Positions 1-48,427 of a stretch of DNA of 48,427 nt are shown in pieces. Source of the DNA: Deinococcales bacterium (GTDB taxonomy: Bacteria; Deinococcota; Deinococci; Deinococcales; JAAFIG01); the NCBI GenBank assembly GCA_013298595.1, contig JAAFIG010000035.1:1-48427 (forward strand), in the 5' to 3' direction. Numbering within the stretch: position 1 is the stretch's first letter; each line of letters opens with the position of its first letter. The notes beneath the pieces are model-generated. The model saw only the letters and a list, made by a program, of their open reading frames with translations. It did not search any database and was not told the origin of the DNA. A program made the translations under genes and the position numbers.

Positions 1-146
1 CATTGGCATTATTAATTCTCGAGCCAAAAGCCAACCGCGAACGAGCCAAAAAATTGCTCGAAACCGCCTTAAAACTCGAGCCATTAGATGCCGCCGAACG
101 CAAACAACTCGAGCGAGCTAAACGCGAACTTGCCGAATTGAAATAG
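1..146 (+). CDS. C-terminal end of a helical, TPR-like protein (partial)
   Basis: An open frame enters from the left edge, with codons starting at position 3, and stops with TAG at 144-146. It gives 47 residues. The segment is strongly helical and charged, with an ALKLEP motif of the kind that ends a tetratricopeptide helix, followed by a Lys/Arg/Glu-rich tail. Three of its Leu-Glu pairs are encoded by CTCGAG. The rest of the protein lies outside the window, so its function cannot be named. A TPR protein is the best guess, but any helical tail would look similar. Confidence 0.5.
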   Translation, partial: LALLILEPKANRERAKKLLETALKLEPLDAAERKQLERAKRELAELK

Positions 147-260
147 CTTTTAAGTACTCTGTACTCAGTAAATTGAATACGTTTTAAAAGTAATGCCAAA
201 AAGAAACAAGTGTGAGTCGGATGGTCAACATGACTCGAGCAAAATCACACGCAAGACTGC

Positions 261-266
261 TACAAT
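261..266 (+). promoter_or_regulatory. -10 element (TACAAT) of a leaderless promoter
   Basis: TACAAT lies 7 nt before the ATG at 274, so transcription would begin at or next to the start codon. There is no room for a ribosome binding site. Confidence 0.6.
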
Positions 267-273
267 ACAAACC

Positions 274-459
274 ATGAAGGCATATCGCGGAGTGGTTAAA
301 GATGGCGTGATCGTGCTCGAGGGTAGCAAACTCCCAGAAGGTACAGTTGTGACTGTGACAGTCAGCAATGGTGAATTGGTACGAGCCACCATCACCAGTG
401 CTTTTGCACCACGGCGAAAAACCCAAAAAATTCGTTTACGACCAACCCCAACCACATGA
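274..459 (+). CDS. Small DUF104/AF2212-type antitoxin-like protein, coupled to rsmI
   Basis: This 61-residue protein begins MKAYRGVVKDGVIVLEG, the pattern of the DUF104/AF2212 family: a short beta-rich domain with a following LPEGT turn. Archaeal members have been described as possible antitoxins of VapC-like toxins. The start at 274 is chosen over an upstream ATG at 193 because the family motif begins there and a -10 box sits just before it. The C-terminus is a basic extension (RRKTQKIRLR) not typical of the domain. The stop overlaps the rsmI start (ATGA, 456-459), so the two are probably translationally coupled. No toxin gene is adjacent, so an antitoxin role is unproven. Confidence 0.7.
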   Translation: MKAYRGVVKDGVIVLEGSKLPEGTVVTVTVSNGELVRATITSAFAPRRKTQKIRLRPTPTT

Positions 460-1295
460 GTGAAATCAAACTCGAGGGTCGGATTGTGCATTTGGTGCCT
501 ACACCCATTGGTAACCTTGGCGATATGACTTTGCGCGGCTTAGAAGTATTACGGAATGCTGATTGTGTCGCTTGTGAAGACACGCGGCACTCTGGGCGTT
601 TATTGCAACACTTTGCGATTCATAAACCACTCGAGCGTCTGGATGCCCACACCATCCATGAACGTGCTCGCGGCATCCTCGAGAAATACCCCAGAGTTGC
701 CTTTGTTTCAGATGCAGGTAGCCCAGGATTATCTGACCCAGGCGCAGAATTGGTTGCCATTGCCCTCGAGATGGGCATTCGTATTGAGGCGTTACCCGGT
801 GCAAATGCGCTGATTCCTGCCATCACACTTGCTAACTTACCCAATGGCAGATTTACCTTTCATGGTTTCTTGCCACGTTCAGGACGCGAACGCCGCGAAC
901 GCCTCGAGGAAATCAGCAGTGCCAACTTGACATCGGTACTCTATGAAAGCCCGCACCGCTTAGTAGATACTCTGGGGGAATTACAAACACTATGTGGCAC
1001 AGAACGGTTGTGTGCTGTAGCTCGAGAACTATCTAAACTCCACGAAGAAGTATTTCGTGGCACGCTGGGCATGGCAATCCAGCATTTTCAAGGTGAAGTA
1101 CGTGGCGAAATCGTCTTGGTTATTGCTCCAAACACTGCCACCCTCGAGCCAAGCATAGATTACGTTGCCAAAGCCCTCGAGTTTGCCAAAGCAGGATTAC
1201 GCGCCAAAGAAATCCGCGCCAAATTACAACAACTTGGACTCGAGCGTAACGCCGCTTACGACCTTGCACTCAGTGCAATTGGTCAAACCACTTAA
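456..1295 (+). CDS. rsmI: 16S rRNA (cytidine-1402-2'-O)-methyltransferase RsmI
   Basis: RsmI uses S-adenosylmethionine to 2'-O-methylate C1402 in the decoding centre of 16S rRNA. At 279 residues it is the usual length. Tetrapyrrole-methylase-type motifs appear in order: [14 protein letters not shown] near residue 14, [10 protein letters not shown] near 41, [12 protein letters not shown] near 85, [11 protein letters not shown] near 113, YESPHR near 163 and [10 protein letters not shown] near 189, ending with GEIVLVI. The start overlaps the preceding small gene by 4 nt. Eight of its nine Leu-Glu dipeptides are encoded by CTCGAG, a clear case of the palindrome shaping coding sequence. Confidence 0.96.
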
Positions 1296-1357
1296 CGATC
1301 ATTTGTACAAACCATAAAAATTCATGTCAGAATACCCAAAGTTTTTTTGGGGGCACT

Positions 1358-2323
1358 ATGAAACGAATTGGCGTATTAACAAGTGGAGGTGACGCACCAG
1401 GCATGAATGCTGCTGTGCGCGCCGTTGTCCGAACAGCTACTGCTCGAGGTATCGAAGTCATGGGTGTCAAACGTGGCTATGCAGGCATGATAGATGGTGA
1501 TTTTGTCAAACTCGGCGCTCGAGATGTGGCAAACACCATTCAACGCGGTGGCACTATTCTTTTAACTGCCCGTTGCAAACCATTTATGACACTCGAGGGA
1601 CGTGAACGAGCAGCGAAGCAATTGCGTTCGGTTGGCATTGAAGGTTTAGTCGTTATTGGCGGAGATGGCAGTTTTCATGGAGCACATTTTCTATCGGTGG
1701 AACATGGTTTCCCTGTGGTTGGCGTACCGGGTACCATAGACAATGATTTATTTGGCACTGATTACACTATCGGTTACGATACCGCTGTCAACACCGCACT
1801 GCAAGCCATAGACCGCATTCGTGATACCGCTGCCAGCCACGAACGACTCTTTATCATCGAAGTGATGGGCAGGCACGCAGGTTTTATTGCCCTTGATGTT
1901 GGCATTGCAGGCGGTGCAGAAGATGTCCTCATTCCAGAGCGCCCCGAAACCCTCGACGAAGTTGTCGAAATTGTCCGAGCCAGCGCCGCTAAAGGTAAAA
2001 CCTCGAGTATCATCATTGTTGCCGAAGGCTACGAAGGTGGCGGCATCAAAGTCATGGAAGCCATCTCCAAAGCCACTGGGTTAGATGCTAGGGTTAGTAT
2101 CCTAGGGCATGTGCAACGTGGAGGCAGCCCTAGTGCTCGAGACAGAATCCTCGCATCACAAATGGGTTACGGAGCAGTCGAAGCGCTTCTTAAAGGTATC
2201 TCAGATGTGATGATTGGAGTGGTTCACGACAAAACAGTGCATGTTCCACTCGAGGAAACGTGGACAAAACGTAAAGATGTGTCCCTCGAGTTACGGGAAC
2301 TCGCTAAAACACTAGCACTCTAA
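1358..2323 (+). CDS. pfkA: ATP-dependent 6-phosphofructokinase
   Basis: PfkA phosphorylates fructose 6-phosphate to fructose 1,6-bisphosphate, the committed step of glycolysis. The 321-residue protein is a standard bacterial PFK. It starts [17 protein letters not shown] (ATP site) and has GGDGS near residue 101. GTIDND near 125 holds the catalytic aspartate, followed by [10 protein letters not shown] and [14 protein letters not shown]. The glycine in GGDGS is usual for ATP rather than pyrophosphate enzymes. A GGGGG run about 7 nt before the ATG can act as the ribosome binding site. It stands alone on the plus strand after rsmI and is followed by a hairpin. Confidence 0.97.
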
Positions 2324-2325
2324 CT

Positions 2326-2353
2326 GTAAGGGCAAGGCACGCCTCGCCCTTAC
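2326..2353. repeat. Small intergenic palindrome after pfkA
   Basis: GTAAGGGC (2326-2333) pairs with GCCCTTAC (2346-2353), and the interior AAGGC/GCCTC adds imperfect pairing. No T-tract follows, so it is not a textbook terminator. It resembles the palindromes at 19986-20052 and 31232-31256 in its GGGC stem and purine/pyrimidine interior. Confidence 0.65.
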
Positions 2354-2373
2354 GAAAATTTTCGAGGTGCCTC

Positions 2374-2703
2374 ATGGATTTTACCGAATATCAACGTGAA
2401 TCTCGTAAAACGGCTCAGGTTGTCAATACAACGCATAACATCACGTATCCAACTTTGGGTTTGGTCAATGAAGCTGGGGAATTTGCGGGAAAAATCAAGA
2501 AAATTTTTCGAGACAAAAACGGAGTTATTTCCGAAACAGACCGCCAAGCACTGAAAGGCGAATTAGGGGATGTGCTTTGGTACTTAACACAACTTTGTAC
2601 CGAGTTAAATTTAACCCTCGAGGAAGTGGCAGCTCACAACATTGAAAAGCTATTTTCTCGGCTCGAGCGTGGCAAAATTGGTGGGGATGGCGACCATCGC
2701 TAA
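2374..2703 (+). CDS. MazG-like nucleoside triphosphate pyrophosphohydrolase
   Basis: This 109-residue protein belongs to the all-alpha NTP pyrophosphatase (MazG-like) superfamily, which hydrolyses (d)NTPs to monophosphates and helps clean nucleotide pools. The Mg-binding pattern is visible as NEAGEF with following lysines near residues 32-41 and ELGDVLWYL near 65-73, which give the EXXE...EXXD signature. The C-terminal GGDGDHR motif is usual in this subfamily. It is a single-domain form, about half the length of full MazG. The substrate cannot be told from sequence. Confidence 0.87.
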   Translation: MDFTEYQRESRKTAQVVNTTHNITYPTLGLVNEAGEFAGKIKKIFRDKNGVISETDRQALKGELGDVLWYLTQLCTELNLTLEEVAAHNIEKLFSRLERGKIGGDGDHR

Positions 2704-2723
2704 AGTATTCTGTAGCCTTGTGT

Positions 2724-2729
2724 TAAACT
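2724..2729 (+). promoter_or_regulatory. -10 element (TAAACT) of a leaderless promoter
   Basis: TAAACT ends 7 nt before the ATG of the ThuA-like gene at 2737. The intervening bases are GC-rich and hold no ribosome binding site. Confidence 0.6.
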
Positions 2730-2736
2730 GCCGCCC

Positions 2737-3459
2737 ATGATTCGCGTCACTGTTTGGAACGAAAATCGTCATGAAAAAAAGAATCCTCGAGTTGCCGAGA
2801 TCTATCCTGATGGTATTCACGGGGCAATTGCATCGGTGTTTGCTGGTCAAGAATTTATGGTGCAAATAGCTACGCTTGATGAACCCGAACACGGTTTAAC
2901 CGAAGCGGTGCTCGAGACTACCGATGTCCTGTTTTGGTGGGGACATTTAGCGCACGGCGACGTATCAGACACAATTGTTGAACGTGTCAAAGCTCGAGTT
3001 TTAGCGGGTATGGGTTTGGTGGTGCTGCACTCTGGGCATTTTAGTAAAATTTTTAAAGTGCTCATGGGTACAACCTGCGACCTCAAATGGCGTGAAGCCA
3101 ACGACCGAGAACGAATTTGGACAGTTGCACCAGGGCATCCAATCGCCGAGGGCATACCAGAGAATATTTTACTTGAAGCTGAAGAAATGTATGGCGAGCA
3201 CTTTGATATCCCTGCACCAGAAGAATTGGTCTTTGTTTCATGGTTCTCGGGCGGTGAGGTGTTCCGCAGTGGTTGCACGTACCGCCGTGGGGCTGGCAAC
3301 ATATTCTACTTTCGACCCGGGCACGAAACATACCCAACCTACCACCATCAAGATATTCGTCAAGTGTTGTTAAACGCAGCACGTTGGGCTGCTAATATCA
3401 ACCCAATAACCACACCTGTTTATGGCAATGCCAAGCCACTCGAGCCATTACCATCATGA
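2737..3459 (+). CDS. ThuA-like (trehalose-utilisation family) protein
   Basis: This 240-residue protein has the ThuA fold related to class I glutamine amidotransferases. It begins [13 protein letters not shown] and has [12 protein letters not shown] near residue 66, [14 protein letters not shown] near 95, GHPIAEGIP near 129 and [11 protein letters not shown] near 197. ThuA proteins take part in sugar oxidation and trehalose or sucrose catabolism in rhizobia, but most members have no assigned reaction. No sugar genes are adjacent, so its substrate is unknown. The stop overlaps the next gene by 4 nt (ATGA). Confidence 0.85.
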
Positions 3460-3710
3460 CCGAGGATACCGTAACGTTAGGTGGCAATACGTGGTGTTTG
3501 CTCGAGACCCAAACGCGAGTCATCGCTGAATCTTTTCGGCGTTTACTGGATTCCGAAGGCATTCCCAGTGTGTTACGCACCCCGTTTGGTTGGGTTATGG
3601 GAACCAATGTCATTGAAGTTGAAACTGGTAATTACCAAGGTGATGTGACGATTTTTGTACCAGAAGTTTTTCTCGAGGACGCAAAAGAATTATTGGGTGA
3701 ACCTGAGTAA
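3456..3710 (+). CDS. DUF2007-type small protein
   Basis: This 84-residue protein has the features of DUF2007 (putative signal-transducing protein). It has an N-terminal helix in which a residue is chosen to face a ligand ([14 protein letters not shown]), a central beta hairpin (GDVTIFVPE) and a final EDAKELLGE helix. The family resembles small regulatory domains of the ACT/PII type, but its role is not known. It is translationally coupled to the ThuA-like gene and faces the convergent CAP-domain gene 13 nt away. Confidence 0.7.
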
Positions 3711-3723
3711 AAATGCGTTATTT

Positions 3724-4224
3724 TCATGGTCTTGGTTTGGCTAATACCATTGTCCAGAAAATGCCTTTATTAGAATTTGAATTGGTTTGTGCCAAGCCAA
3801 CTTCGGTGTAACTAGCTCCCATAATGTTTTTGCAGTGCCCAGGGCTTTTTAACCAGCCTGTCATGACAGCTTCAAGTGTTGGGTAGCCATATGCAATGTT
3901 TTCACCAATAATGGAGTATACATAACCAGCACTGGTCGCTCGAGTCGCGGGTGTTGAACCTGTTGGGCTGGTGTGGTCAAAGTAATTGTTGCTTATCATA
4001 TCTTGATTATGGGTTTTTCCTGCCGTCTCGAGTTTGGCATTCCAAGCTAAAGCAAGTACAGCTGGGTAATTAACCCCGCCGCATTGTCTGCTTAAAGCTC
4101 GAGCTGTGTTGATACTCGAGAGCATAAGATTTTCGATAGATGGATTTGGATTAGGTGCAATGGGTGTATTGGTGGTTGTGTTGCAACCCATCAATAACAC
4201 TGCAAGTATCAAAAAATAACGCAT
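3724..4224 (-). CDS. CAP/SCP-domain lipoprotein
   Basis: This 166-residue secreted protein has an N-terminal signal MRYFLILAVLLMGC with a lipobox ending in Cys13, then a Thr/Asn/Pro-rich linker. The CAP (SCP/PR1) domain follows, with AWNAKLETAGKTHNQDM near 62, FDHTSPTGSTPATRA near 85, IGENIAYGY near 108, WLKSPGHCKNIM near 128 and FWTMVLAKP at the end. CAP proteins are extracellular with a conserved His/Glu cavity. In bacteria their roles are mostly undefined. It is anchored to a membrane by the lipid. Confidence 0.9.
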   Translation of the reverse strand: MRYFLILAVLLMGCNTTTNTPIAPNPNPSIENLMLSSINTARALSRQCGGVNYPAVLALAWNAKLETAGKTHNQDMISNNYFDHTSPTGSTPATRATSAGYVYSIIGENIAYGYPTLEAVMTGWLKSPGHCKNIMGASYTEVGLAQTNSNSNKGIFWTMVLAKPRP

Positions 4225-4229
4225 AGTCT

Positions 4230-4235
4230 AGTGTA
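4230..4235 (-). promoter_or_regulatory. -10 element (TACACT) of the CAP lipoprotein gene
   Basis: On the minus strand TACACT ends 5 nt before the ATG at 4224, another leaderless arrangement. It sits in the 23-nt gap after the upstream membrane gene. Confidence 0.5.
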
Positions 4236-4247
4236 GCATCTGTTTTT

Positions 4248-4613
4248 TTATTGCTCTGTGCGTTTCCTCTCTCCGAGGATATGGCTGACAATTGAACTTG
4301 TGACAGATAATAAAAGTGATGCAATTAAAGCTGCAAAGAAACCACCTGTCTCGAGATTAGTCCAAGCAGCTACAATCAAAAGCACAACAGCGTTAATAAC
4401 AAAAGCAAATAAGCCAAAACTAATCAGTGTGGCTGGTAGAGTAAGCAGTAAAAGTATTGGTCGAATAACAGCATTTGCTAAACCTAAAACCAGACCAGCA
4501 ACTAAGTACGAAGCTGCTCCGCCTGTTTCAAACCAAATCAAACCAGGAAAAATTGCACTGACAATCCATAACGCAAGGGTATTAATCACAACCCGCATGA
4601 CAAAGTTTCTCAT
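4248..4613 (-). CDS. YvlD/phage-holin-4-superfamily membrane protein
   Basis: This 121-residue protein has four hydrophobic segments: INTLALWIVSAIFPG, SYLVAGLVLGLANAV, LISFGLFAFVINAVVLLIVA and FFAALIASLLLSVTSSIV. The motif NAVIRPILLLLTLPAT between the second and third is diagnostic of the PF04020 family (YvlD). The start at 4613 is chosen because its ATG overlaps the stop of the PspC gene (ATGA). YvlD and PspC proteins are co-encoded in Bacillus in an envelope-stress-responsive group, which suggests a membrane stress role here. The 'phage holin' name of the family does not imply a phage. Confidence 0.85.
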   Translation of the reverse strand: MRNFVMRVVINTLALWIVSAIFPGLIWFETGGAASYLVAGLVLGLANAVIRPILLLLTLPATLISFGLFAFVINAVVLLIVAAWTNLETGGFFAALIASLLLSVTSSIVSHILGERKRTEQ

Positions 4614-5044
4614 GGCTCGAGTTTTTCCTTGCCAACACTTGGCATCATCAGCCACGCAATAGCATATGAAATAATACCAATACCGCCAAAAATTGAAAGC
4701 AAAACTGTGGCAATACGAACCAAATTGACATCTAATTTGTAATACTTGGCCAGTCCTGCACAGACACCTGCCAGCATTCGTTCTTTATTAGGACGTACCA
4801 AGCCATTCACCAACGGCAACACTTCTGGCTCGAGATGGGTTGGTACTTCTGGGAGCATAAAAATAGCCAGAAAATAGCTGATGGCAATTACACCAAAGAG
4901 TGGCGGCAGGATTGCTCCGCTGAAAAAAAAGACGAGAACCCCGCCGCGTAACCATAGTGGATGAATTCCGCTATACCAAGATAAACCACTGAGCACCCCA
5001 GCGATAACTCGGTCACGCTTAAATTTATACCAACGCTTTTCCAT
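4610..5044 (-). CDS. Protein with two tandem PspC domains
   Basis: This 144-residue membrane protein has two PspC units. The first begins FKRDRVIAGVLSGLSWYSGI near residue 8, and the second begins NKERMLAGVCAGLAKYY near 85. Each is followed by a hydrophobic hairpin ending in a MLPE or MMPS motif. PspC domains sense or relay envelope stress. Single-domain forms are commoner, so a duplication is a mild oddity. It is translationally coupled to the YvlD-like gene downstream. Confidence 0.88.
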   Translation of the reverse strand: MEKRWYKFKRDRVIAGVLSGLSWYSGIHPLWLRGGVLVFFFSGAILPPLFGVIAISYFLAIFMLPEVPTHLEPEVLPLVNGLVRPNKERMLAGVCAGLAKYYKLDVNLVRIATVLLSIFGGIGIISYAIAWLMMPSVGKEKLEP

Positions 5045-5103: not shown

Positions 5104-6345
5104 TTATTGCTCAGCTAAGGTCAGCATGGTTCTCGCCAGTACTTCAACACCTCGAGCAATATCTTGAGGTGCAGCAAATTCGTCTGGACGATGTGAAATA
5201 CCACCACGACAAGGAATAAAGATCATTGCCATTGGGCAAACTCGAGCCATAAAAAGCGAATCGTGATACGCCCGAGAAACCATCTCTAAACTCGAGATTT
5301 GCATGGTTGCGATACTGCTCCGAATTGCCTCAAGAATGCGTGGATCGGATTGTGCGGGAGGGTCGGCGTTAATCAGTTCGATGCTTGCTTGAACGTTGCG
5401 TTTTGCTGCAACTTTTTTGATCGTCTCGAGCACTTGATTAACTGCTTGATCCCGACGTGAACCATCAATATCCCGAATATCAATACCCATTTTGGCTTTA
5501 CTAGGAATGCTGTTAATGGCTGCTGGGTGAATCTCGAGTAAGCCTGTTGTGCCAACTGTATCTATGGCATCTGTTGCTAAGGCAGCGGTTTCGACAGCTA
5601 AGGCAATCTCGGCTGCTGCCAGTAGGGCATCGCGTCTGCCTGGCATCAGTCTTGCACCAGCATGCCCGCCTTCGCCCTCGAGATGCACAAAGAAACTGGC
5701 TGGAGCGGCAATCGCATTGACCACACCAATTTGCAACTTTTCTTGCTCGAGTAATGGTGCTTGTTCGATATGTAATTCGACAAAAGCCGCGTAGTAATTC
5801 TTAGGTAACAAAACAGTCTCGAGCGGTGCGGTGTAACCAACTTTACCTCGAGCGGTTTCAACATCTATGCCATCAGAATCTTTTAAGGCTCGAATTTTCT
5901 CGAGTTCAATCGCACCAGCCAGTACCCGCGAGCCTAAACAACCAAGCCCAAACCGAGTCGGTTCTTCGGCAGTGAACATCAGCACCTCGAGACTGCGCTT
6001 GGCTTTGACACCACTGCGCTTAATGGCGCGGAGTGCCTCGAGTCCACCAAGCACACCAACGGTGCCATCGTACATCCCAGAAAAAGGAATCGCATCGGTA
6101 TGCGAACCAGTGCCGATGGCGGGCAAATCGGGTTGCGAACCTTTGAGGCGAATAAAAGTATTACCAAGTGCGTCCTCGCGGTAATGTAGTCCAGCCTCGA
6201 GCGCTAAGCCTTTCAGCCATGCTCGAGCTTTCATATCTTGCTCTGTCCAGAGTATCCGAGTAACAGCAGGGGAGGGCGCATCGGAAAACGTGGACAGATG
6301 CTTGAGTTCAGCCATAAGTTTTGAAGAATCAATTTGTAAATTCAT
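5104..6345 (-). CDS. allC: Allantoate amidohydrolase-type M20 hydrolase
   Basis: This is a zinc amidohydrolase of the M20 family in the allantoate amidohydrolase/N-carbamoyl amino acid hydrolase group. Metal-site motifs are GTGSHTDAIPFSGMYDGTVG, FTAEEPTRFGLGCLGS, FVELHIEQAPLLE and a terminal GGISHRPDEFA. I start it at the ATG at 6345, which has a GGGG stretch 6-7 nt upstream. A GTG at 6366, overlapping the allE stop, would add 7 residues. Its partner allE directly upstream supports an allantoate role: release of ammonia and ureidoglycine from allantoate in purine nitrogen recovery. A related ureidoglycolate or carbamoyl-amino-acid hydrolase cannot be excluded from sequence alone. Confidence 0.85.
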   Translation of the reverse strand: MNLQIDSSKLMAELKHLSTFSDAPSPAVTRILWTEQDMKARAWLKGLALEAGLHYREDALGNTFIRLKGSQPDLPAIGTGSHTDAIPFSGMYDGTVGVLGGLEALRAIKRSGVKAKRSLEVLMFTAEEPTRFGLGCLGSRVLAGAIELEKIRALKDSDGIDVETARGKVGYTAPLETVLLPKNYYAAFVELHIEQAPLLEQEKLQIGVVNAIAAPASFFVHLEGEGGHAGARLMPGRRDALLAAAEIALAVETAALATDAIDTVGTTGLLEIHPAAINSIPSKAKMGIDIRDIDGSRRDQAVNQVLETIKKVAAKRNVQASIELINADPPAQSDPRILEAIRSSIATMQISSLEMVSRAYHDSLFMARVCPMAMIFIPCRGGISHRPDEFAAPQDIARGVEVLARTMLTLAEQ

Positions 6346-6362
6346 ATTAGCCCCGTTTTTGC

Positions 6363-7103
6363 TCACTCGAGCGAATGCCGATTCCAGTCTTTGTAAATCA
6401 AGTAACTCGAGGGCGTGCTACCCAGTGCACCGAACCATTGCGGGCAGTATGGAGCCATATAAATTACGTCACCAGTTTCGACTGGATACCACGCGTCGCC
6501 AAGGCGATAAATGCCACCGCCAGTAAGCATCATTAACCCATGTTCCATGACATGTGTCTCGACTAAGCTAAGGTGCGATCCCGGCTCAAAATTCATGATG
6601 TTAACCGCAAAATCAAATTGTATTTCGTCAGGCAAAAGCATTTGTACCAAAACTCGAGAATCGTTCATGACACGGGTTTTAGGCAGTGTTTTACTATTAC
6701 CAATAATTGTTTCTGGAAGTTTTGTGCCAGCCACAGCAATATACGGTTTTTCAAAAACCACTGCTCGCCCACCACTTTTGCTAGTTAAGGAATAATCTTC
6801 GGTCAGTGGTAAAAATGCGTAACTCGAGGTTTTTAAGACATGGGTTTTCTTGCCAACTTTTAAACTAAATTCACCTTCCAACACAAAAATTAAACTCGAG
6901 CAACCATCTAAAGCTGCCGCAAAACTGGCATTTTTTTGTGCCTCGAGTGTAAACATGGTAAATCCAGCACCGATAGCAGGGTTGATATGCACCACTCGAG
7001 TCCCGTTTTTATCGCTCGGAAACGGAGCGCGAATAAACGAATCTGAGGTCAAAAGCGAATGGTCGCGTTGCACACTGGTGCGCGTAAAACCAAATCTTTG
7101 CAT
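6363..7103 (-). CDS. allE: (S)-ureidoglycine aminohydrolase
   Basis: AllE is a manganese bicupin that converts (S)-ureidoglycine to (S)-ureidoglycolate and ammonia. The 246-residue protein shows two cupin halves. The C-terminal one carries the metal site: VETHVMEHG (Glu, His, His) and a later CPQWF (Gln), matching the family's E-H-H-Q ligands. The N-terminal half has a GCSSLIFVLEGEF cupin strand. It is the first gene of a two-gene unit with the allantoate amidohydrolase, giving two consecutive steps of ureide breakdown. No allantoinase or transporter is in the window. Confidence 0.9.
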   Translation of the reverse strand: MQRFGFTRTSVQRDHSLLTSDSFIRAPFPSDKNGTRVVHINPAIGAGFTMFTLEAQKNASFAAALDGCSSLIFVLEGEFSLKVGKKTHVLKTSSYAFLPLTEDYSLTSKSGGRAVVFEKPYIAVAGTKLPETIIGNSKTLPKTRVMNDSRVLVQMLLPDEIQFDFAVNIMNFEPGSHLSLVETHVMEHGLMMLTGGGIYRLGDAWYPVETGDVIYMAPYCPQWFGALGSTPSSYLIYKDWNRHSLE

Positions 7104-7109
7104 GCTCGC

Positions 7110-7115
7110 ATTCTA
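7110..7115 (-). promoter_or_regulatory. -10 element (TAGAAT) of the allE-allC unit
   Basis: On the minus strand TAGAAT ends 6 nt before the allE ATG, with GCGAGC between them and no ribosome binding site. Confidence 0.6.
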
Positions 7116-7240
7116 CGGCACTCGAGACACGCTATGTGAATACGGTAAACTAAAACCAGTCGAAATTAAAGAGAGGTGAGACGGCATTATTGAGTTCTTG
7201 GCGATGTTCGTTTATTCCCATTTTCAAAGTAGGAGGAATT

Positions 7241-9040
7241 ATGAAACGATTTCTGTTCGCACTTGTAGTCTCGAGTTTACTTTCGGTTGTACAAGCCGCT
7301 GCGCCAGATATTTACGTGGCATACCCAGACAATAAAGCCAAAGTGCCATTTGACCATGTGTTACTCGAAGGTTCCGTCACGGCTGGTGCCGATCTAACCA
7401 TCAATGGTAAAGCCATAGATGTCGGCTTGGATGGATTATTTATCGAATGGTACCCGCTTGCCGAAGGCTTAAATAAACTCGAGATGAAAACCACAAAAGG
7501 AAGTGAAACAGGTTCATTAAGTTACGAAATTACGTCTAATCTGCCAAAGCCCCTCGCAGAAACGCCTACTGCCATAGATGTAGATTCCGTAGAACCATAC
7601 GCCAATCATGTCTGGTACACCCTCGAGAATGGTTTGCTAGAAGTGAAATTTCGTGGTTCGCCCAAAGGCACAGCCAGTTTTATGATCGGCGATAAAGGTC
7701 CATTCAAAATGCTCGAGCGAACCGCTGCCGATTTTATTGGGTATAACCCAGTCCAAGCTGCCCTCGAGCTACCCGGCATGTACGAAGGTTCGTATGTGTT
7801 ACAACCCAACGATTCCTTTGATGCAGCACCTGTCAAAGTCAGTCTCAAAGGCACCGATGGCAACACCGTAAACTTAACCACAGATGGCAAATTTACTTAC
7901 AAACCCTTATCTCAACCTCGAGTTGGCATTTATACCGCACAGCCCTTAGATGGTATCTCGAGCAGCACCCAAGTGGCACGCAATGGCTTTGGACGAGCTT
8001 ACATATTGTACCCTCGAGAAGGCTCAAAATTTGTTGTTGTTGGCGAAGAAGCCAGTGTTTATCGTTGCAAGATCGCGCCTGGGCAAATTGTTTATGTTCG
8101 CAAAGACCGTATGCGTTTACTGCCCGAAGGCGCACCTGTACCTAACCAATTTTTCACCACCATTCGCACCAAACGTCTCGAGAATCGCACGCAAGTCAAA
8201 TTCTTTTTATCAGACCGCGTACCACACTCAATAGACCACAGTGCCCAAACCAATAGTCTCGAGGTTAAATTGTTTTACACCAACTCCGACATTGATTACA
8301 TTGTTTCGGCAAATCCCGACCCACTGATCCGAGATTTGCGTTGGTCACAAACTGCCGATCCTGTTACCACCGTCAAAATAGATTTAAAACAAGCCCAACT
8401 CTGGGGTTATACCGTGTTTTACGAAGGCAACACCCTTGTCATCGAACTCCGAGACCCACCAAGTATTAGTAAATCCAGTCCACTGGCTGGACAAAAAATC
8501 ACCATAGATGCAGGACATGGTGGCGAAGACTCGGGAGCTGTTGGTGCTTTGCGTGTCAACGAAAAAGACATTGTCCTCGCCATCTCCAAGCAACTCAAAG
8601 CATCACTCGAGCGACGCGGCGCAATTGTCACCATGACCCGCGAAACCGATGTGGAAATTCCTCTTTTAGACCGCAGCATTATTGCCGATAAAGCTGGCTC
8701 GAGTGTCTTTGTTTCAATTCACTGCAATGCTCTACCAGATGGCGTAGACCCAAACAAAAACCGAGGTTTTGCGGCGTATTACTTTCAACCACAATCTCGA
8801 GCTTTAGCTCAGACCATTCAAGATGCTGTACGAACACTTGCACCAGAAATCGGCGATGATGGCACGCATTACCAGAACTTAGCAGTGACTCGCCCGACAC
8901 AAATGCTACAAACGCTGATAGAAACAGGATTTATGACTGATAAAAGCAACCTGCGCTTTTTGATGTCGCAAGCAGGACAATTCAAAATAGCTGATACCAT
9001 TGCTATTGGACTCGAGCGTTTCTACCGCAATCAGCGATAA
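7241..9040 (+). CDS. Secreted N-acetylmuramoyl-L-alanine amidase (Amidase_3)
   Basis: This 599-residue peptidoglycan hydrolase cleaves the bond between N-acetylmuramic acid and the stem peptide. The start at 7241 follows a strong AGGAGG site 4 nt upstream and is preferred over a longer frame from 7190. It has a signal peptide (MKRFLFALVVSSLLSVVQA), then about 390 residues of beta-rich, AMIN-like substrate- or wall-binding region. The catalytic domain runs from about 412 to the end. Zinc ligands sit in IDAGHGGEDSG (His), VNEKD (Glu) and SIHCNA (His), with a catalytic Glu in LIETGFM. It stands alone, with its own terminator. Confidence 0.92.
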   Translation: MKRFLFALVVSSLLSVVQAAAPDIYVAYPDNKAKVPFDHVLLEGSVTAGADLTINGKAIDVGLDGLFIEWYPLAEGLNKLEMKTTKGSETGSLSYEITSNLPKPLAETPTAIDVDSVEPYANHVWYTLENGLLEVKFRGSPKGTASFMIGDKGPFKMLERTAADFIGYNPVQAALELPGMYEGSYVLQPNDSFDAAPVKVSLKGTDGNTVNLTTDGKFTYKPLSQPRVGIYTAQPLDGISSSTQVARNGFGRAYILYPREGSKFVVVGEEASVYRCKIAPGQIVYVRKDRMRLLPEGAPVPNQFFTTIRTKRLENRTQVKFFLSDRVPHSIDHSAQTNSLEVKLFYTNSDIDYIVSANPDPLIRDLRWSQTADPVTTVKIDLKQAQLWGYTVFYEGNTLVIELRDPPSISKSSPLAGQKITIDAGHGGEDSGAVGALRVNEKDIVLAISKQLKASLERRGAIVTMTRETDVEIPLLDRSIIADKAGSSVFVSIHCNALPDGVDPNKNRGFAAYYFQPQSRALAQTIQDAVRTLAPEIGDDGTHYQNLAVTRPTQMLQTLIETGFMTDKSNLRFLMSQAGQFKIADTIAIGLERFYRNQR

Positions 9041-9685: not shown

Positions 9686-9710
9686 ATTGTACAAGAATTC
9701 AGGTTATACT
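9686..9710. promoter_or_regulatory. Overlapping divergent promoters of the toxin-antitoxin pair and pcrA
   Basis: TACAAT on the minus strand (9686-9691) ends 6 nt before the antitoxin ATG. TATACT on the plus strand (9705-9710) ends 12 nt before the helicase ATG. The boxes are only 13 nt apart, so the polymerase footprints must overlap and the two promoters could compete. Confidence 0.6.
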
Positions 9711-9722
9711 GCATGGCTATTT

Positions 9723-11927
9723 ATGGCAGACTCGAGCTTGTTAGATTCCTTAAATCCTGCACAACGTGCCGCAGCCGAACACTTGCATGGTCCTGCTTTG
9801 GTGGTGGCTGGGGCTGGGGCTGGAAAAACGTCAACGGTGGTGCGCCGTATCGCTCACTTAATGGAGACACATGGTGTCTATCCAAATGAAATTTTAGCCG
9901 TGACATTTACCAATAAAGCCGCTGGCGAACTCAAGGAACGGGTTAATCATCTGATTGGTAAACATGCCGAACAGATTTGGGTGACAACTTTTCACAGTGC
10001 TGGTGTACGAATTCTGCGGGCATATGGTGAATTTGTTGGCTTAAAGACTGGTTTTGTTATTTACGATGATGGCGACCAAATGGATATCTTGAAAACCATT
10101 CTCGAGGGAATTTCTGGGGCGGGCGATTATCATCCGCGTTATTTGCGAGGCATTATTGATCGGGCAAAATCGAATTTGTGGACTCCTCAGGATTTGGCTT
10201 CGCAAGGCGAAGAATACATGTCTGGAATGCCAAAAGATGTGGCTGTTGAAGGCTATCGCCGTTACGAAAGTGCCATGCGGCGCAACAATGCCATAGACTT
10301 TGGTGACTTGTTGGTATTGACGGTGAAACTTTTCCACGAAAATCCTGATGTGCTCGAGAAAATTCAGAACCGAGCTGTTTTTGCACATGTGGACGAGTAT
10401 CAAGACACCAATAAAGTTCAGTACGAAATGACGCGCTTAATATCCGAGAAATACCGCAACCTGATTGTCATAGGCGATCCAGATCAAAGCATCTATAAAT
10501 TTCGTGGTGCTGATATCCAAAATATCTTAGATTTCCAACACGATTATCCAGATGCAGCTATTTATCGGCTCGAGGCAAATTATCGCAGTAATGCTCGGGT
10601 GCTGGAAATTGCTAATGCCTTAATTGCTCATAACAGCGAACGACTCGAGAAGAATTTGGTAGCGGTTAAACCTGCTGGAGATGCGGTGCGTTTTTACCGA
10701 GCGCCAGATCATCGTGCCGAAGCTGAATTTGTGGCAACGCGAATCGAAGCATTGCGTGGCAGCGGTGTGATGTACAACAAAATGGCGATTTTGTATCGAA
10801 CCAATTCACAAAGTCGTGTGCTCGAGGAACGATTTTTACGCGCAGGAATTCCCAGTAAAATTGTCGGTGGCATGTCGTTTTATGATCGCCAAGAGATCAA
10901 GGATTTACTGGCGTATGCTCGAGTGGCTGTCAATACCTTAGATGATTTAGCTTTGAAACGCGCTTTGAAACGCCCACGGCGTGGTGTGGGTGACACTAGC
11001 CTTGAGAAATTAGAATCCTATGCCAGTATTGCTGGTACCAGTTTACTTTCGGCATTTCTCAAAGCTGATGAAATCCTCGAACGTGGTGGCAGCAAAGCCG
11101 AAGAGTTCGCCAAACTTATTCTCGAGGTTGCCGAGTACGCTTCCGAGCACAGTGCTGAAGAATTTTTTCGCTTGTTGATCGATGTGACTGGGTATAAAAC
11201 CATGCTCGAGGCAGAACTCAAAACCAATAAATTTGAAACCGAAGCGCGGCTCGAGAACATCAACGAACTTGTCAATGCTGCTACCGAATGGGATGCTGAA
11301 AATCATGGCACCATCCTCGAGTTTTTAGATGATAGCGCCTTGCTTTCAAGTGTGGACGACATGCGAACCAAACGCGATAACAAAACCACGCCCGAAGATG
11401 CCGTCACGATGATGACCATGCACAATGCCAAAGGACTCGAGTTTGAAAATGTTTTTGTGGTTGGTTTAGAAGATGGTTTGTTGCCGCACCGCACCAGTAT
11501 TACTGAAGCTGGTGGAGTCGAAGAAGAACGTCGATTATTGTATGTAGCAATTACTCGAGCCATGGAACGTTTATGGATTACGATGGCAGAAAGTCGTCAA
11601 GTCTTTGGTAAAACATCACCATCTGAAGACTCGAGATTTATTAAAGATATTCCAGCCGATTTGATGGTGCAAGTCAATTTATTTAACGAACCTTACGGCA
11701 GCCGCATAGACCCGCAGCGAACCCCGCCAGCCTTGCAAGCCAAACTCGAGGCTGCAGGTGGTGCAGTGCTGGTTTTAAAAGGCGGTGAAAAAGTTAAGCA
11801 CCCGAAATTTGGTTCAGGCAAAGTGCTGGCAGTAACTGGCGCAGGCGATAGGCTCGAGGCAATGATTCAATTTGGTGAAGGTATGAAAAAACTCTTGGTT
11901 AAGTACGCCAATTTACTGCTCGAGTAA
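9723..11927 (+). CDS. pcrA: UvrD/PcrA-type 3'-5' DNA helicase
   Basis: This 734-residue superfamily 1A helicase acts in repair and replication-fork maintenance. Motifs in order: LNPAQRAAAEH (Q motif), AGAGAGKTST (Walker A, near 30-38), TFHSAGVRILR (Ia), HVDEYQDTNKVQ (Walker B), IGDPDQSIYKFRGA (III), LEANYRS (IV), MTMHNAKGLEFENVFVVGLE (V) and LLYVAITRAMERL (VI). A C-terminal Tudor-like segment (VKHPKFGSGKVLAV) is typical of PcrA/UvrD, where it can contact RNA polymerase. I use the ATG at 9723, as an upstream frame would include the promoter. Its 3' end overlaps the convergent peptidase gene by 15 nt. Confidence 0.95.
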   Translation: MADSSLLDSLNPAQRAAAEHLHGPALVVAGAGAGKTSTVVRRIAHLMETHGVYPNEILAVTFTNKAAGELKERVNHLIGKHAEQIWVTTFHSAGVRILRAYGEFVGLKTGFVIYDDGDQMDILKTILEGISGAGDYHPRYLRGIIDRAKSNLWTPQDLASQGEEYMSGMPKDVAVEGYRRYESAMRRNNAIDFGDLLVLTVKLFHENPDVLEKIQNRAVFAHVDEYQDTNKVQYEMTRLISEKYRNLIVIGDPDQSIYKFRGADIQNILDFQHDYPDAAIYRLEANYRSNARVLEIANALIAHNSERLEKNLVAVKPAGDAVRFYRAPDHRAEAEFVATRIEALRGSGVMYNKMAILYRTNSQSRVLEERFLRAGIPSKIVGGMSFYDRQEIKDLLAYARVAVNTLDDLALKRALKRPRRGVGDTSLEKLESYASIAGTSLLSAFLKADEILERGGSKAEEFAKLILEVAEYASEHSAEEFFRLLIDVTGYKTMLEAELKTNKFETEARLENINELVNAATEWDAENHGTILEFLDDSALLSSVDDMRTKRDNKTTPEDAVTMMTMHNAKGLEFENVFVVGLEDGLLPHRTSITEAGGVEEERRLLYVAITRAMERLWITMAESRQVFGKTSPSEDSRFIKDIPADLMVQVNLFNEPYGSRIDPQRTPPALQAKLEAAGGAVLVLKGGEKVKHPKFGSGKVLAVTGAGDRLEAMIQFGEGMKKLLVKYANLLLE

Positions 11928-20536: not shown

Positions 20537-21616
20537 CTATTGTCCTGGACTACTTCTCGAGATAAAGACCGGTTCGCAAACTTCGGCTTCGACATCTGTC
20601 CCACGTATCTCGAGGTGGACTCGAGTGCCTAGTTCAATTTCTTTTTCGAGGTATGCCAGAGCAATACCTTGTTTAAGACTTGGGCTTTGTGTGCCACTGG
20701 TTGTTTCGCCTATTGTTTGCCCCTCGAGTTTGACGGTCATGTGTTCTCGAGGAATGCCGCGTCCAATCATGCGGATGCCGCGTAGCATTTTGGTTTTGGG
20801 TTTTGCTAACATTGCGTCGCGTCCAATAAAGTCTTTGTATTCTTTGCTCACCCAAGTAAATGGTGTCTCGAGGATGTTACTTTCATCGTTCCATTCGTGT
20901 CCGTAAAGCGGAAATCCTGCCTCGAGTCTGAGCGTGTCTCGAGCGCCTAAGCCGCACATGGCAAAACCGAGTTTGTGCAGTTCTTTCCAAAGTCCTGCCG
21001 CTTCTCGAGGGGCGCAGAATATCTCAAAGCCATCTTCGCCTGTGTAACCTGTTCGTGCCATCAGGACATCGATGCCGCAGAGTTTACTGGGGAAGACACT
21101 GTTTTTACGGTAACTTTGTAGATCGGCACTGGTCACTGGCTCGAGGAGTTCGGCTGTTTTTGGTCCTTGGGCAGCTATCAGGGCGTTATCGTCTGAGCGA
21201 TTCTCGAGGGTGACATCATATTTTGTAGCGATTTCTGATAGGTGCATCCAGTCTTTTTCGATGTTGCTGGCATTGACCACAATCATGTAAGCGTTTAACT
21301 CGAGGCGATACACGTAAATATCATCTACTATGCCACCGTGTTGGTTCAGCAAAATACTGTAATGGGCTTTACCTGTTTTGAGTTTCGCGGCATCGTTGGC
21401 ACAAGCGTATTGTAAAAACTCGAGGGCTTGTTTGCCCGACACAATAAATTCGCCCATATGTGAAACATCAAAAATCCCTGCTCGAGTGCGAACAGCTAAG
21501 TGTTCGGCAATGATGCCTGCGTATTGCACAGGCATATCCCAACCACCAAATTCGACCATACGAGCGTTATACTCGAGGTGCGTGCCATGCAGCGCTGTCT
21601 GCTTGAGAGTTGTCAT
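20537..21616 (-). CDS. gcvT: Aminomethyltransferase (glycine cleavage T protein)
   Basis: GcvT transfers the methylene carbon from aminomethyl-GcvH to tetrahydrofolate, releasing ammonia. The 359-residue protein is standard length. It begins with [20 protein letters not shown] and contains FDVSHMGEF near 49, DDIYVYR near 97 and [11 protein letters not shown] near 191. [15 protein letters not shown] near 224 is the folate-site region. It heads the glycine cleavage operon and has a leaderless promoter, so a glycine riboswitch in its own leader is excluded. Confidence 0.96.
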
Positions 21617-38575: not shown

Positions 38576-39373
38576 ATGCTCGAGCAACGCTTGCAAAAAA
38601 TTCAACAATACCTTTACCAACATGGTCACTCGAGTGTCCAGACGTTGGTTGAATACACCGATTCGTCGCTAGCAACAGTGCGCCGAGACCTCGAGAAACT
38701 CGAAGCCGAAGGTGTAGTGATTCGTACCCACGGTGGAGCAAAACTTGCCGAGACCAGCAATGCCGAAATTGGTTTTCGGCAACGTGAACACCGCGAAGTC
38801 AAATATAAACGTGCTATTGCCGAAACAGCTTACGCTCACTTAAAACCAGATAGCAGTATCTTTTTAGACTCGAGTACCACAGCTTTGCAATTGGCTAAAC
38901 GCTTACGTTTACATCCAATGCGCTTACATTTAACAACCAATAGTTTTGCAGCTGCCCAAGAACTTTTTGGTGTTCCAGAGATTAGTTTGCTCTTTGTGGG
39001 TGGGCATATTCGTAGCGAAAACCTTGCTACTATTGGTATGTACGCTGAAGAAACCTTAGACCGCTTATGGTTTGACCAATTATTCATGAGTGCAAATGCT
39101 ATTCATGCCGAACATGGTTTCACCACCTTTGATACCTCAGAAGCAGCCATGAACCGCAAAATGCTCTCTCGAGCCGCTGAACGTTACATGCTTTGTGATG
39201 CCACAAAATTTGGCAAAATTGCCCCACATCATGTAGCAGCATTACAAGTTGCCCAACACATCATCACCGATCAACGCATACCAGATCATTGGAAACAACA
39301 CCTTGCCAATGTCGGTGTGCAACTCGAGCAAGTCAGCACCACCCATATTATTAGCCACAACGAGGCAAGTTAA
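38576..39373 (+). CDS. DeoR-family transcriptional regulator
   Basis: This 265-residue regulator has a DeoR helix-turn-helix (LQKIQQYLYQHGHSSVQTLV, DSSLATVRRDLEKLEAEGV, IRTHGGA) and a DeoRC sugar-phosphate sensor domain (SIFLDSSTTALQLAKRL, LFVGGHIRSEN, FMSANAIHAEHGFTT, CDATKFGK). The start at 38576 follows GGAG, 4-5 nt upstream. It precedes a sugar ABC transporter and a sugar-phosphate enzyme, 25 nt before the binding-protein gene. The whole set is likely one unit that it controls. Confidence 0.93.
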   Translation: MLEQRLQKIQQYLYQHGHSSVQTLVEYTDSSLATVRRDLEKLEAEGVVIRTHGGAKLAETSNAEIGFRQREHREVKYKRAIAETAYAHLKPDSSIFLDSSTTALQLAKRLRLHPMRLHLTTNSFAAAQELFGVPEISLLFVGGHIRSENLATIGMYAEETLDRLWFDQLFMSANAIHAEHGFTTFDTSEAAMNRKMLSRAAERYMLCDATKFGKIAPHHVAALQVAQHIITDQRIPDHWKQHLANVGVQLEQVSTTHIISHNEAS

Positions 39374-39398: not shown

Positions 39399-40652
39399 AT
39401 GAAGAAACGCTGGTTGTTATTAGCAAGTGCTTTTGGTGCCTTAGGGTTGACTGCTTTAGCACAGAGTAAAGTCGAAATCGAATTTTGGTCTTGGTATTTA
39501 TCACCGAAATTTGATCCGTACTTAAAAGGTGTGATTAGTCAATTTGAAGCAGCCAATCCGACAATTTCGGTAAAACTGGTAGACAAACAAGACACCATGG
39601 AACGTGATTTACAAGCAGCCATCGCGCTCGGGAAATCACCAGATGTTGTTAACCTCTGGAGCGATGCAACTGCCGCTGCTGCCCAAAACGGTTTGCTTAC
39701 CCCAGTCACAGACCTGACCAGTATTGCCGATTTACGTGCTCAGTTTTGGGATAACACCCTGGCTATGTTTATCGTGGACGGCAAAAACTATGGCTACCCG
39801 TGGTACGGTTGGACAGACCAAGGCGTTATGGCATATAACTCGGAAATCCTTAAAAAAGCAGGAGTCACTCGAGTACCAAAAACCATTTCTGAACTGTTAA
39901 CAGCTTCAAAACTGATTAAGCAACGCACAGGTTCATATGGTTGGTTACCACCTGTCAAAGACCCAAATGGTGCTAGTTTCCTTGGACAATTTTACCTCGA
40001 GGGATTGCCATTGTTTGCGGGTGGCAAAGCGGCTTTTAACAGCCCAAAGCACATTACGTTGCTGCAAAAATTTATTGAATTGATGAAAGGTGATTTTATT
40101 CCGCAAGATTTATTGCGTAAAGAAGCTTTCCAACTTAATAACGAATACTACAGCCAAGGTAAGAGTGCGTTTATTGTTGGTGGTGCACAAGCTTTGGTTC
40201 GTGTGAAAGATGCAAACAAAGATATTTATAGCAAAACCAAAGTCGTCCCAGCACCACTTGGCGCAGGTGGTGTGCAAACAGGTGGTTCAATGAGTCTTGT
40301 GGTGCCAAAAGCCAGTAAATTCCAAAAAGAAGCAGGCTTGTTTGCCATGTTTATGTCGAATAACAAAGCCCAAGTCCAATTCTCCAAGTTGGCTGGTATT
40401 GTCCCCACCACAAAAGGCGCAGAAAACGACCCTGAACTCAAAGCTGCCAATCCAAACGATGCTCTTGATGTAGCAACATCATTGGTCAGTGGTACGGGTC
40501 GGTTTATTACCCCAGGCTGGAACCCACCAAAAAATACCGATAATGTCTACAAGAACTTTAATGACAATATCGAAGCCGCTTTCCTTGGTTCAAAATCAGC
40601 CCGTCAAGCACTTAATGACGCTGTTGCTTTCTGGAATGCAAACGCAAAATAA
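39399..40652 (+). CDS. ABC sugar transporter substrate-binding protein
   Basis: This 417-residue protein has a signal peptide (MKKRWLLLASAFGALGLTALA) and a family 1 solute-binding fold: EIEFWSWYLSPKFDPYLKG, DVVNLWSDATAAAAQNGLL, GYPWYGWTDQGVMAYN. The ATG at 39399 follows AGGAGG 4 nt upstream, a strong ribosome site. It probably captures an oligosaccharide or amino sugar, inferred from the SIS enzyme downstream. It is the first transport gene after the regulator. Confidence 0.94.
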   Translation: MKKRWLLLASAFGALGLTALAQSKVEIEFWSWYLSPKFDPYLKGVISQFEAANPTISVKLVDKQDTMERDLQAAIALGKSPDVVNLWSDATAAAAQNGLLTPVTDLTSIADLRAQFWDNTLAMFIVDGKNYGYPWYGWTDQGVMAYNSEILKKAGVTRVPKTISELLTASKLIKQRTGSYGWLPPVKDPNGASFLGQFYLEGLPLFAGGKAAFNSPKHITLLQKFIELMKGDFIPQDLLRKEAFQLNNEYYSQGKSAFIVGGAQALVRVKDANKDIYSKTKVVPAPLGAGGVQTGGSMSLVVPKASKFQKEAGLFAMFMSNNKAQVQFSKLAGIVPTTKGAENDPELKAANPNDALDVATSLVSGTGRFITPGWNPPKNTDNVYKNFNDNIEAAFLGSKSARQALNDAVAFWNANAK

Positions 40653-40684
40653 TTCCTAATAATTCTAAGGTTTGAAAAACCGTT

Positions 40685-40718
40685 GAGGTAGGGTAAGCGC
40701 ATGGTCTTACCCTACCTC
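40685..40718 (+). terminator. Hairpin between binding-protein and permease genes
   Basis: GAGGTAGGGTAAG (40685-40697) pairs exactly with CTTACCCTACCTC (40706-40718), a perfect 13-bp stem with an 8-nt loop. It is followed by TCGAG and an A-run, not a T-run. It probably protects the upstream message or lowers readthrough, giving more binding protein than permease. Confidence 0.7.
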
Positions 40719-44673: not shown

Positions 44674-44686
44674 TACTTTAATATTA

Positions 44687-46753: not shown

Positions 46754-46769
46754 AATCCATAAATCAAAG

Positions 46770-46797
46770 GAAACTCGAGCCAATTTGCTCGAGTTTC
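46770..46797 (+). terminator. Terminator hairpin after natB, CTCGAG in both arms
   Basis: GAAACTCGAGC (46770-46780) pairs exactly with GCTCGAGTTTC (46787-46797) around a CAATTT loop, an 11-bp stem. It is followed by TGTG rather than a T-run. It lies 16 nt after the natB stop. Confidence 0.7.
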
Positions 46798-46816
46798 TGT
46801 GTAGCCCTAGCCGTGG

Positions 46817-46833
46817 CTCTCAGAACGTGAGAG
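46817..46833 (+). promoter_or_regulatory. Small hairpin in the pnp leader
   Basis: CTCTCA and TGAGAG form a 6-bp stem with a GAACG loop, 54 nt before the pnp start. The pnp leader of E. coli folds for RNase III-dependent autoregulation. A similar role here is only a possibility. Confidence 0.3.
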
Positions 46834-46887
46834 AATGCAGGCGGTAAAAATTAAAACGACATTGAAGTCGAAAGAAAAGAGGAAGAC

Positions 46888-48427
46888 ATGGAAGCAAAGA
46901 TTTTTAAGACCACACTTGGTGGTCGGGAGCTTATGCTCGAGACGGGCAAAGTTGCCAAATTGGTCAGTGGTAGTGTGGTTTTGCGGTATGGCGATGTAAT
47001 GATTTTGGCAACAGTGCAGGCTTCGGATAAGCCAAGCACCTTGGATTTCTTGCCATTAACTGTTGAGTTCGAGGAACGCCACTACGCAGTTGGTAAGATT
47101 CCTGGTTCGTTTATGCGCCGCGAAGGTCGCCCTGGCGAGAAAGCCATTCTCAGTGCGCGTTTAACGGATCGTCAGGCTCGCCCATTGTTTCCTAAGGGTT
47201 ACCGTTTTGAAACTCAGATTATTATTACGGTGGTCAGTGCCGATCAGGAAAATACACCAGATGTGCTTGGTGCAATTGCTGCCAGTGCTGCACTTGCCAT
47301 TTCGGATATTCCTTGGGATGGTCCAACCGCTTGTGTTCGGGTTGGTTACTTGGATGGTCAGTATGTACTCAACCCAACCTTACAGCAAATCGAAACCTCG
47401 AGTCTCGAGTTGGTTGTGGCTGGAACCAAGGATGCTGTGCTGATGGTTGAAGCTGGTTCGAGTGGACAATCCGAGGATGTGATGGTTGGAGCAATTGAAT
47501 TTGCTCACAAAGAAATGCAATCTGTGATTGACTTAATTGTGCAAATGAAAGCCGATTGTGGTCATGAACCATTTGCATGGCAACCAAAAGTTGATGAAGC
47601 CAAAGAAGCCCAAAAAGCGGTGGATGTTGCTGCTGTGACCGAAAAAGCGGCTGCTGCTAACCTCAAAGCTGCTATTTTAACAGCTGGTAAAAAAGCTAAA
47701 GGTGCAGCAATCAAAGCTGTGCGTGATGGTATTATTGCCGAGTTAAACCCAGTACCAACCAGCACAGACCCCGATGATCTCGAGGTGCACGCGACTCGAG
47801 TGACTGCCTTAAAAAATGTGTTTGATAAAGTGCAACAAAATGTTTTGCGAAAAATGGTACTCGAGGAACGCATTCGAGCTGATGGACGTGACCCGAAAAC
47901 CGTGCGTCCGATTACTATTGAAACAGGTTACTTACCACGCACTCACGGCTCGAGCTTATTTACTCGTGGTGAAACCCAAGTGCTGGGTACCGCGACCCTT
48001 GGTACAGGGCGCGATGAGCAAATCATCGACGACTTGGGTTTAGATGATAACGATAAGTTTTTGCTGCATTACAATTTCCCGCCATACAGCACGGGTGAAG
48101 TCAAACGCGTTGGTGGGCAATCCCGCCGCGAAATTGGGCATGGCAACCTTGCAAAACGTGCCATTAAAGCTGTCATGCCTGCGTATAACGATTTCCCCTA
48201 CGTGGTTCGTGTGGTTGGCGATGTGCTCGAGAGCAACGGTAGCTCGAGTATGGCAACCACGTGTGCTGCAAGTCTTGCACTTTTGGATGCTGGTGTGCCA
48301 CTGAAAGCGCCTGTGGCTGGTGTGGCGATGGGCTTAGTCAAAGAAGGCGACCAATACGCAATCCTGACCGATATTCTGGGTATGGAAGATGCTCTTGGCG
48401 ATATGGATTTCAAAGTTTGCGGAACTC
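46888..48427 (+). CDS. pnp: Polyribonucleotide nucleotidyltransferase (partial, 3' end missing)
   Basis: PNPase degrades RNA phosphorolytically from the 3' end. The window holds 513 codons of the frame with no stop. The first RNase PH domain starts [20 protein letters not shown] and includes [20 protein letters not shown] and [20 protein letters not shown]. An alpha-helical linker of Ala and Lys follows (residues about 230-330). The second RNase PH domain contains [47 protein letters not shown] and the [13 protein letters not shown] motif. GAGGAAG, 3-5 nt before the ATG, is the ribosome site. KH and S1 domains lie beyond the edge. Confidence 0.97.

Follow-up and report, generated by a model that had tools for sequence, protein, structure and literature searches.

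CTCGAG is a HIP1-like highly iterated palindrome in a lineage of Deinococcota

Introduction

The XhoI and PaeR7I restriction-modification systems recognise CTCGAG. For HIP1, the described system closest to the one studied here, we know of no explanation that has so far been agreed upon. HIP1 (GCGATCGC) and the alternate HIPs are highly iterated palindromes of cyanobacteria; HIP1 reaches 300–2,700 copies per Mb and most alternate HIPs about 500–2,500 (Elhai, 2015, PMC4390886). Each high-frequency HIP in cyanobacteria has a putative cognate methyltransferase, and in Elhai's model the number of HIPs saturates near one per kb (PMC4390886). Uptake of DNA by Campylobacter jejuni requires a methylated hexamer, RAATTY (CtsM) (PMC10046745). 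In the honey bee, CTCGAG itself has been reported as overrepresented in unmethylated intergenic DNA (PMC3903499).

Here we describe an excess of CTCGAG in a 48,427-bp stretch of Deinococcota DNA (hereafter the window), which is contig 29 of a draft genome of 4.58 Mb in 68 contigs (G000), and in its relatives. Like HIP1 and the alternate HIPs, CTCGAG is a G+C-rich, lineage-specific palindrome in excess across the whole genome, and sporadic replacement by other palindromes is a further trait that these words share. It differs from them in phylum, in sequence and in density (5,900–7,700 per Mb, or 6 per kb, with no sign of the saturation near one per kb that Elhai's model predicts), in having no cognate methyltransferase among the families searched, and in measurably reshaping dipeptides. 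The earlier note on this DNA, which was made from its letters, had compared the motif to HIP1 and knew of no CTCGAG version; our literature search likewise turned up no report of a CTCGAG highly iterated palindrome, although absence from the papers searched does not prove that none exists. With RAATTY, CTCGAG shares the form of a short palindromic hexamer spread genome-wide; RAATTY serves as a self mark, whereas the neighbour-independent excess of CTCGAG misfits a once-per-fragment signal. The honey bee case involves the same hexamer in an animal genome and an intergenic CpG context, with no apparent relation to ours.

Results

CTCGAG is in excess throughout the window and its genome

The window (45.3% G+C) contains 309 copies of CTCGAG at a mean spacing of 157 bp, where base composition predicts 9.6, a dinucleotide model 5.2 and a trinucleotide model 22.5. 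The earlier note had put the excess at about forty-fold over an expected one copy per 5 kb; the excess is real and the expected rate correct, but by base composition the excess is 32-fold. Its count of some 36 copies in the first 4,850 bp came to exactly 36 when repeated. As it had also stated, copies lie in all three codon phases (163/65/41) and in noncoding DNA (42 in 6.9 kb), so that CTCGAG behaves as HIP1 does. The following features of the window illustrate this distribution:

1–48427, no strand: the whole window, with 309 sites and a longest site-to-site gap of 722 bp (39996–40718)
1–4850, no strand: the stretch first counted by the earlier reader, with 36 CTCGAG
18–321, no strand: noncoding, with five CTCGAG (18, 75, 108, 234 and 316)
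9687–11927, + strand: UvrD/PcrA helicase gene, with 17 CTCGAG
20537–21616, - strand: GCV_T (glycine cleavage T-protein) gene, with 15 CTCGAG, one per 72 bp
28217–31168, + strand: gene for a 983-aa Clp_N and peptidase S51 protein, with 19 CTCGAG
38579–38695, no strand: noncoding, with three CTCGAG (38579, 38629 and 38690)

The five copies at 18–321 indicate that the excess is not bound to codons, and in GCV_T the motif saturates an otherwise ordinary housekeeping gene. The excess is maintained in the rest of the genome, which carries 27,159 copies in 4,582,226 bp (5,927 per Mb, one per 169 bp), some 50 times more than their surroundings predict, both within and between genes. CTCGAG is its own reverse complement, and both strands give equal counts. 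The reversed word, GAGCTC, has only 15 copies in the 4.58 Mb, and is similarly scarce in G001, G002, G003, G012 and G016.

A uniform bias of about 50-fold acts on coding and noncoding DNA

Our comparison set comprised 111 genomes of the phylum, with G000, G001, G002, G003 and G012 (plus G016) as motif-rich samples. The assemblies are drafts, 91–94% complete (58% for G016), and genes were called as the longest open frames. The neutral expectation within genes was derived from codons occurring in other contexts than the motif, and for noncoding stretches we used a trinucleotide model after masking the motif.

In the five motif-rich samples, CTC GAG made up 65–77% of all Leu-Glu pairs, against a neutral 1.8–9%, and 32–62% and 35–47% of the opportunities in phases 1 and 2 were filled. 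In noncoding DNA the odds multiplier was 51 in G000, 52 in G001, 47 in G002, 58 in G003 and 45 in G012, genomes whose G+C content spans 45–60%; it was only 9–14 in G008, G015 and G052. In G002, at 60% G+C, both the neutral expectation and the observed density in noncoding DNA were doubled. The force is thus constant while density tracks composition: a uniform, per-site bias at the DNA level, about 50-fold in odds, holds whether or not the DNA is coding and whatever its base composition, and is inherited across two families.

This bias extends to the proteome. The Leu-Glu dipeptide was enriched 2.17–2.46x in the five motif-rich genomes, 1.84x in G008, 1.46x in G015 and 1.67x in G052, compared with 1.04x in 80 diverse bacteria. 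Glu-Leu stayed near 1.0 (0.86–1.04) where Leu-Glu was enriched, indicating that the pressure alters amino acids and not just synonymous codons. The earlier note had argued that neither codon bias nor a shared protein motif could produce the excess, and this held: CTC GAG accounts for 161 of the 221 Leu-Glu pairs in the window, and under a codon-aware model the excess stays, with 1,269 of 1,936 Leu-Glu pairs in a sample of the genome against 1.8% expected. We rejected codon bias and a Leu-Glu protein motif as sources, noncoding DNA having the same 50-fold multiplier and Leu-Glu being enriched in motif-rich genomes only.

CTCGAG density forms a gradient across Deinococcota

All four genomes of the window's family (f1) have extreme densities (5,900–6,500 per Mb; 20–30x by base composition), as do both genomes of genus g11 in a second family, f2 (6,250 and 7,700 per Mb). 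Elsewhere in f2, G008 (genus g8) has 3,566 per Mb, and G004 has 297 per Mb, below GAGCTC. Densities are about 1,400–3,400 per Mb in genera g13, g20 and g21, which resemble Meiothermus and allied genera, and about 600–1,100 in genus g7, which is Thermus-like and in which CTCGAG overall does not exceed GAGCTC; the likenesses of g7 to Thermus and of g13 to Meiothermus are indirect. Each of the eight genomes from which 49–448 kb was sampled had CTCGAG as its most overrepresented palindromic hexamer. Viral contigs dense in CTCGAG were noted as well.

Plasmid stretches of named species gave CTCGAG ratios of 0.6x in Deinococcus radiodurans and D. peraridilitoris, 2.5x in Thermus thermophilus (GAGCTC, 2.9x), 3.7x in Allomeiothermus silvanus and 7.9x in Oceanithermus (GAGCTC, 4.7x). 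An excess specific to CTCGAG was seen neither in the Thermus-like genera nor in the two Deinococcus plasmids. Relatives were placed using the UvrD/PcrA helicase protein; for the acyl-CoA dehydrogenase of the window, most of the best tblastn matches were to Deinococcus plasmids, and the assignment to Deinococcota comes from this search together with indirect fits.

Known CTCGAG enzymes do not track the motif

The XhoI-family nuclease (PF04555) was found in none of the six motif-rich genomes. It is present in G018, G041 and G042, and in G009 its frame contains two stop codons; the genes in these four Deinococcota genomes are L447 (G009, from about 7596), L448, L449 and L450. Three g10 genomes with XhoI had 695–974 CTCGAG per Mb, compared with 1,655–1,966 in three congeners without it, which is ordinary avoidance and the opposite of the excess. 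We therefore rejected XhoI restriction-modification as the cause: its nuclease is missing where the motif is rich, and the motif is rarer where the nuclease occurs. XhoI is partnered by two unrelated types of methyltransferase, of the gamma class in G009 and the beta class in g10.

The methyltransferase adjoining XhoI in G009 matches the model PDLC03313, which we read from this pairing as PaeR7I-like. This enzyme occurs in some Meiothermus-like genomes, some of them without XhoI, but a search for it found nothing in G000, G001, G003, G008, G012 and G016 and, in G002, a distant relative at most. Among g13 genomes, motif density did not follow possession of the enzyme (2,314 per Mb compared with 2,059; p=0.08). 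Searches with PF01555, PF00145, PF07669, PF02384 and PF02086 returned varied enzymes, whose specificity is unreadable from sequence, and no ortholog that the motif-rich genomes all share; a conserved orphan methyltransferase of these families was accordingly discarded as a candidate. The earlier note had proposed a solitary methyltransferase among possible causes, and as far as this was tested, the absence of the PaeR7I/XhoI-type family from G000, G001, G003, G012 and G008 and the lack of a shared ortholog in the five families leave the proposal unsupported. The two other causes it had named, a repair or recombination bias and a protein that binds the site, are weighed in the Discussion.

Sites exclude each other at close range and are otherwise independent

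At Leu-Glu pairs shared by orthologs, the counterpart of a motif was again a motif in 77% of cases, and the counterpart of a non-motif pair was a motif in 57% (odds ratio 2.5), indicating that sites turn over yet form again. Within genes, motif pairs nearer than 21 bp were scarce (309 seen vs 867 expected at 6–20 bp), and in noncoding DNA the scarcity was limited to pairs closer than 12 bp (36 vs 77 expected). A 21-bp footprint was rejected because exclusion at 12–20 bp is confined to genes and reaches only 11 bp in noncoding DNA. Hairpin avoidance was rejected as well, since 6-bp inverted repeats in general are not avoided at distances of at least 9 bp. In samples of G001 and G002, CTCGAGNCTCGAG (distance 7) was less rare than pairs at distances 8–13, mainly in G002 and with C as the central base.

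Apart from this close-range exclusion, occupancy of Leu-Glu sites was independent of other copies beyond about 20 bp, and did not rise with isolation when sites whose nearest copy lay 50 to 400 bp away were compared with closer ones. No density target is therefore visible, which argues against needs of the one-per-kb kind, such as those of mismatch repair or uptake signals.

CTCGAG itself was at 52x its neutral count in noncoding DNA, the transition variants CCCGAG, CTTGAG and TTCGAG were at 1.5–2.2x, and transversion variants at 0.7–1.05x. An apparent depletion of all one-base variants was the product of an unmasked model and was gone once the motif was masked. Flanks were nearly random, with G at -1 at 1.45x and G at -3 at 0.58x; the slight preference for G before the motif is mirrored by C after it, and no extended consensus was found beyond these weak flanks.

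Long motif-free gaps in G000 are mainly A+T-rich, with polysaccharide-synthesis and prepilin genes among them, as would fit DNA that was acquired lately, or is exchanged fast, and has yet to gain the motif. Two such regions of polysaccharide and prepilin genes, nearly without CTCGAG for 2–4 kb, are G000:C34:70631-83407 (L336, L337) and G000:C1:224656-227010 (L329).

Discussion

Our tentative reading, to which we give a probability of roughly 0.45, is that this lineage has CTCGAG as its highly iterated palindrome, used genome-wide as the site of a putative abundant DNA-binding or DNA-modifying protein. Such a sequence-specific protein would use CTCGAG along the entire chromosome, each non-overlapping site adding a small independent benefit with a population-scaled advantage of about ln 50, near 4, and sites would be gained and retained wherever protein sequence permits. 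Selection for a protein site would explain several observations together: the independence of occupancy from distance beyond about 20 bp, which makes the benefit look additive per site; the scarcity of pairs closer than 12 bp in noncoding DNA, which sterically exclusive binding would give; and the 1.5–2.2x level of transition variants, as it should be if near-cognate sites remain partly functional. What counts against a bound protein is that no candidate was found in the searches made, that the noncoding exclusion is short (at most 11 bp) and rests on 36 pairs, that there is no extended consensus past the weak flanks, and that the multiplier is constant in five species, which selection, depending as it does on population size, would produce less easily than an enzymatic bias. 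The 12–20 bp exclusion in genes may act at the mRNA level, and decay, rather than residual function, could lie behind the surplus of transition variants. The bolder form of this reading, a chromosome-wide, nucleoid-like putative DNA-binding system with a strict six-base palindrome about every 170 bp that rewrites synonymous codons and proteome dipeptides, we regard as doubtful.

The strongest competitor is a biased repair or gene-conversion drive, in which an enzyme system settles mismatches towards the CTCGAG-making strand and safeguards the copies already there, and the motif thereby spreads with no advantage to its host. This is a real but lesser possibility. It accounts more readily than selection for the constant multiplier, a nearly equal value (45–58) in five genomes from two families of differing G+C resembling the property of an enzyme, and the multiplier is blind to gene boundaries and protein sequence. 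However, transition near-misses are not depleted, transversion variants are at neutral levels, and strict drive alone does not predict the exclusion of close sites in noncoding DNA. T:G-type (VSP-like) drive at one position should leave variants at other positions well above neutral, and VSP-like conversion of near-misses is unsupported by the noncoding variant counts. We also set aside a Chi-like recombination site, words of the Chi type being strand-oriented and non-palindromic, whereas CTCGAG is palindromic. Of the two main candidate causes, we place the bound or modifying protein slightly ahead of biased repair.

The remaining alternatives are much less probable. Under a methylation-based HIP, a solitary CTCGAG methyltransferase would steer mismatch repair and sites would accumulate until it is served (Elhai, 2015), a view that draws on the putative cognate methyltransferase of every high-frequency cyanobacterial HIP (PMC4390886), on the PaeR7I-type enzyme found without XhoI in some Meiothermus-like genomes and on the slight flanking bias (1.45x) towards a preceding G and a following C. 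We consider it unlikely given the distribution of that enzyme described above, its failure to predict density in g13, the five Pfam families without a shared ortholog, and a density of 6 per kb that is far over the model's saturation, with occupancy independent of local density. An uptake signal marking self DNA for transformation and spreading through uptake, like RAATTY in Campylobacter, is if anything less likely still. CTCGAG is an overrepresented word, as such a signal would be, G000 has prepilin-like genes, and Thermus and other known members of the phylum are competent; yet at 6 sites per kb nearly all fragments carry several copies and an extra one gains little, and the diminishing return expected at fragment scale is missing, occupancy being indifferent to neighbours beyond about 20 bp. 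Known DNA-uptake signals are also longer and rarer than CTCGAG is here. The notion that C. jejuni offers a precedent rests on its need for a methylated hexamer (PMC10046745). Readings of the excess as a side effect of an XhoI-type restriction-modification system, codon bias, a repeated element or an assembly artefact are in the main refuted, and we give them hardly any weight. A shared recognition sequence, and nothing more, speaks for the XhoI version, while the nuclease is absent from motif-rich genomes and its g10 carriers have fewer copies; the excess survives codon-aware and noncoding tests, its flanks are nearly random, and independent assemblies agree.

CTCGAG is thus a HIP1-like highly iterated palindrome in a new phylum, and provides a second, denser case outside cyanobacteria. 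Its gradient, from no specific excess in Thermus-like genomes through intermediate levels in Meiothermus-like ones, which include cultured relatives, to the extreme, makes methylation, binding and repair drive testable by comparison. That pressure on a DNA word can shift protein dipeptide content genome-wide bears on codon-usage and compositional models, and the abundance of the motif matters in practice when XhoI is picked for cloning in these organisms.

Other palindromes are affected in the opposite direction. In the five motif-rich genomes, 27–40 of the 64 palindromic hexamers fell below 20% of expectation, a general avoidance that suggests many restriction systems, and GGCC was at 1–2% of expectation in G000, G001 and G003. 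A C5 cytosine methyltransferase that PADLOC matches best to a model for orphan methyltransferases is present in G000 (L023), G001 (L025) and G012 (L024), the three proteins being 59–74% identical; it might relate to GGCC avoidance, yet G003 avoids GGCC with no ortholog found. In the window itself, the product of 28217–31168 (+) joins an N-terminal Clp_N to a C-terminal peptidase S51, an unusual pairing.
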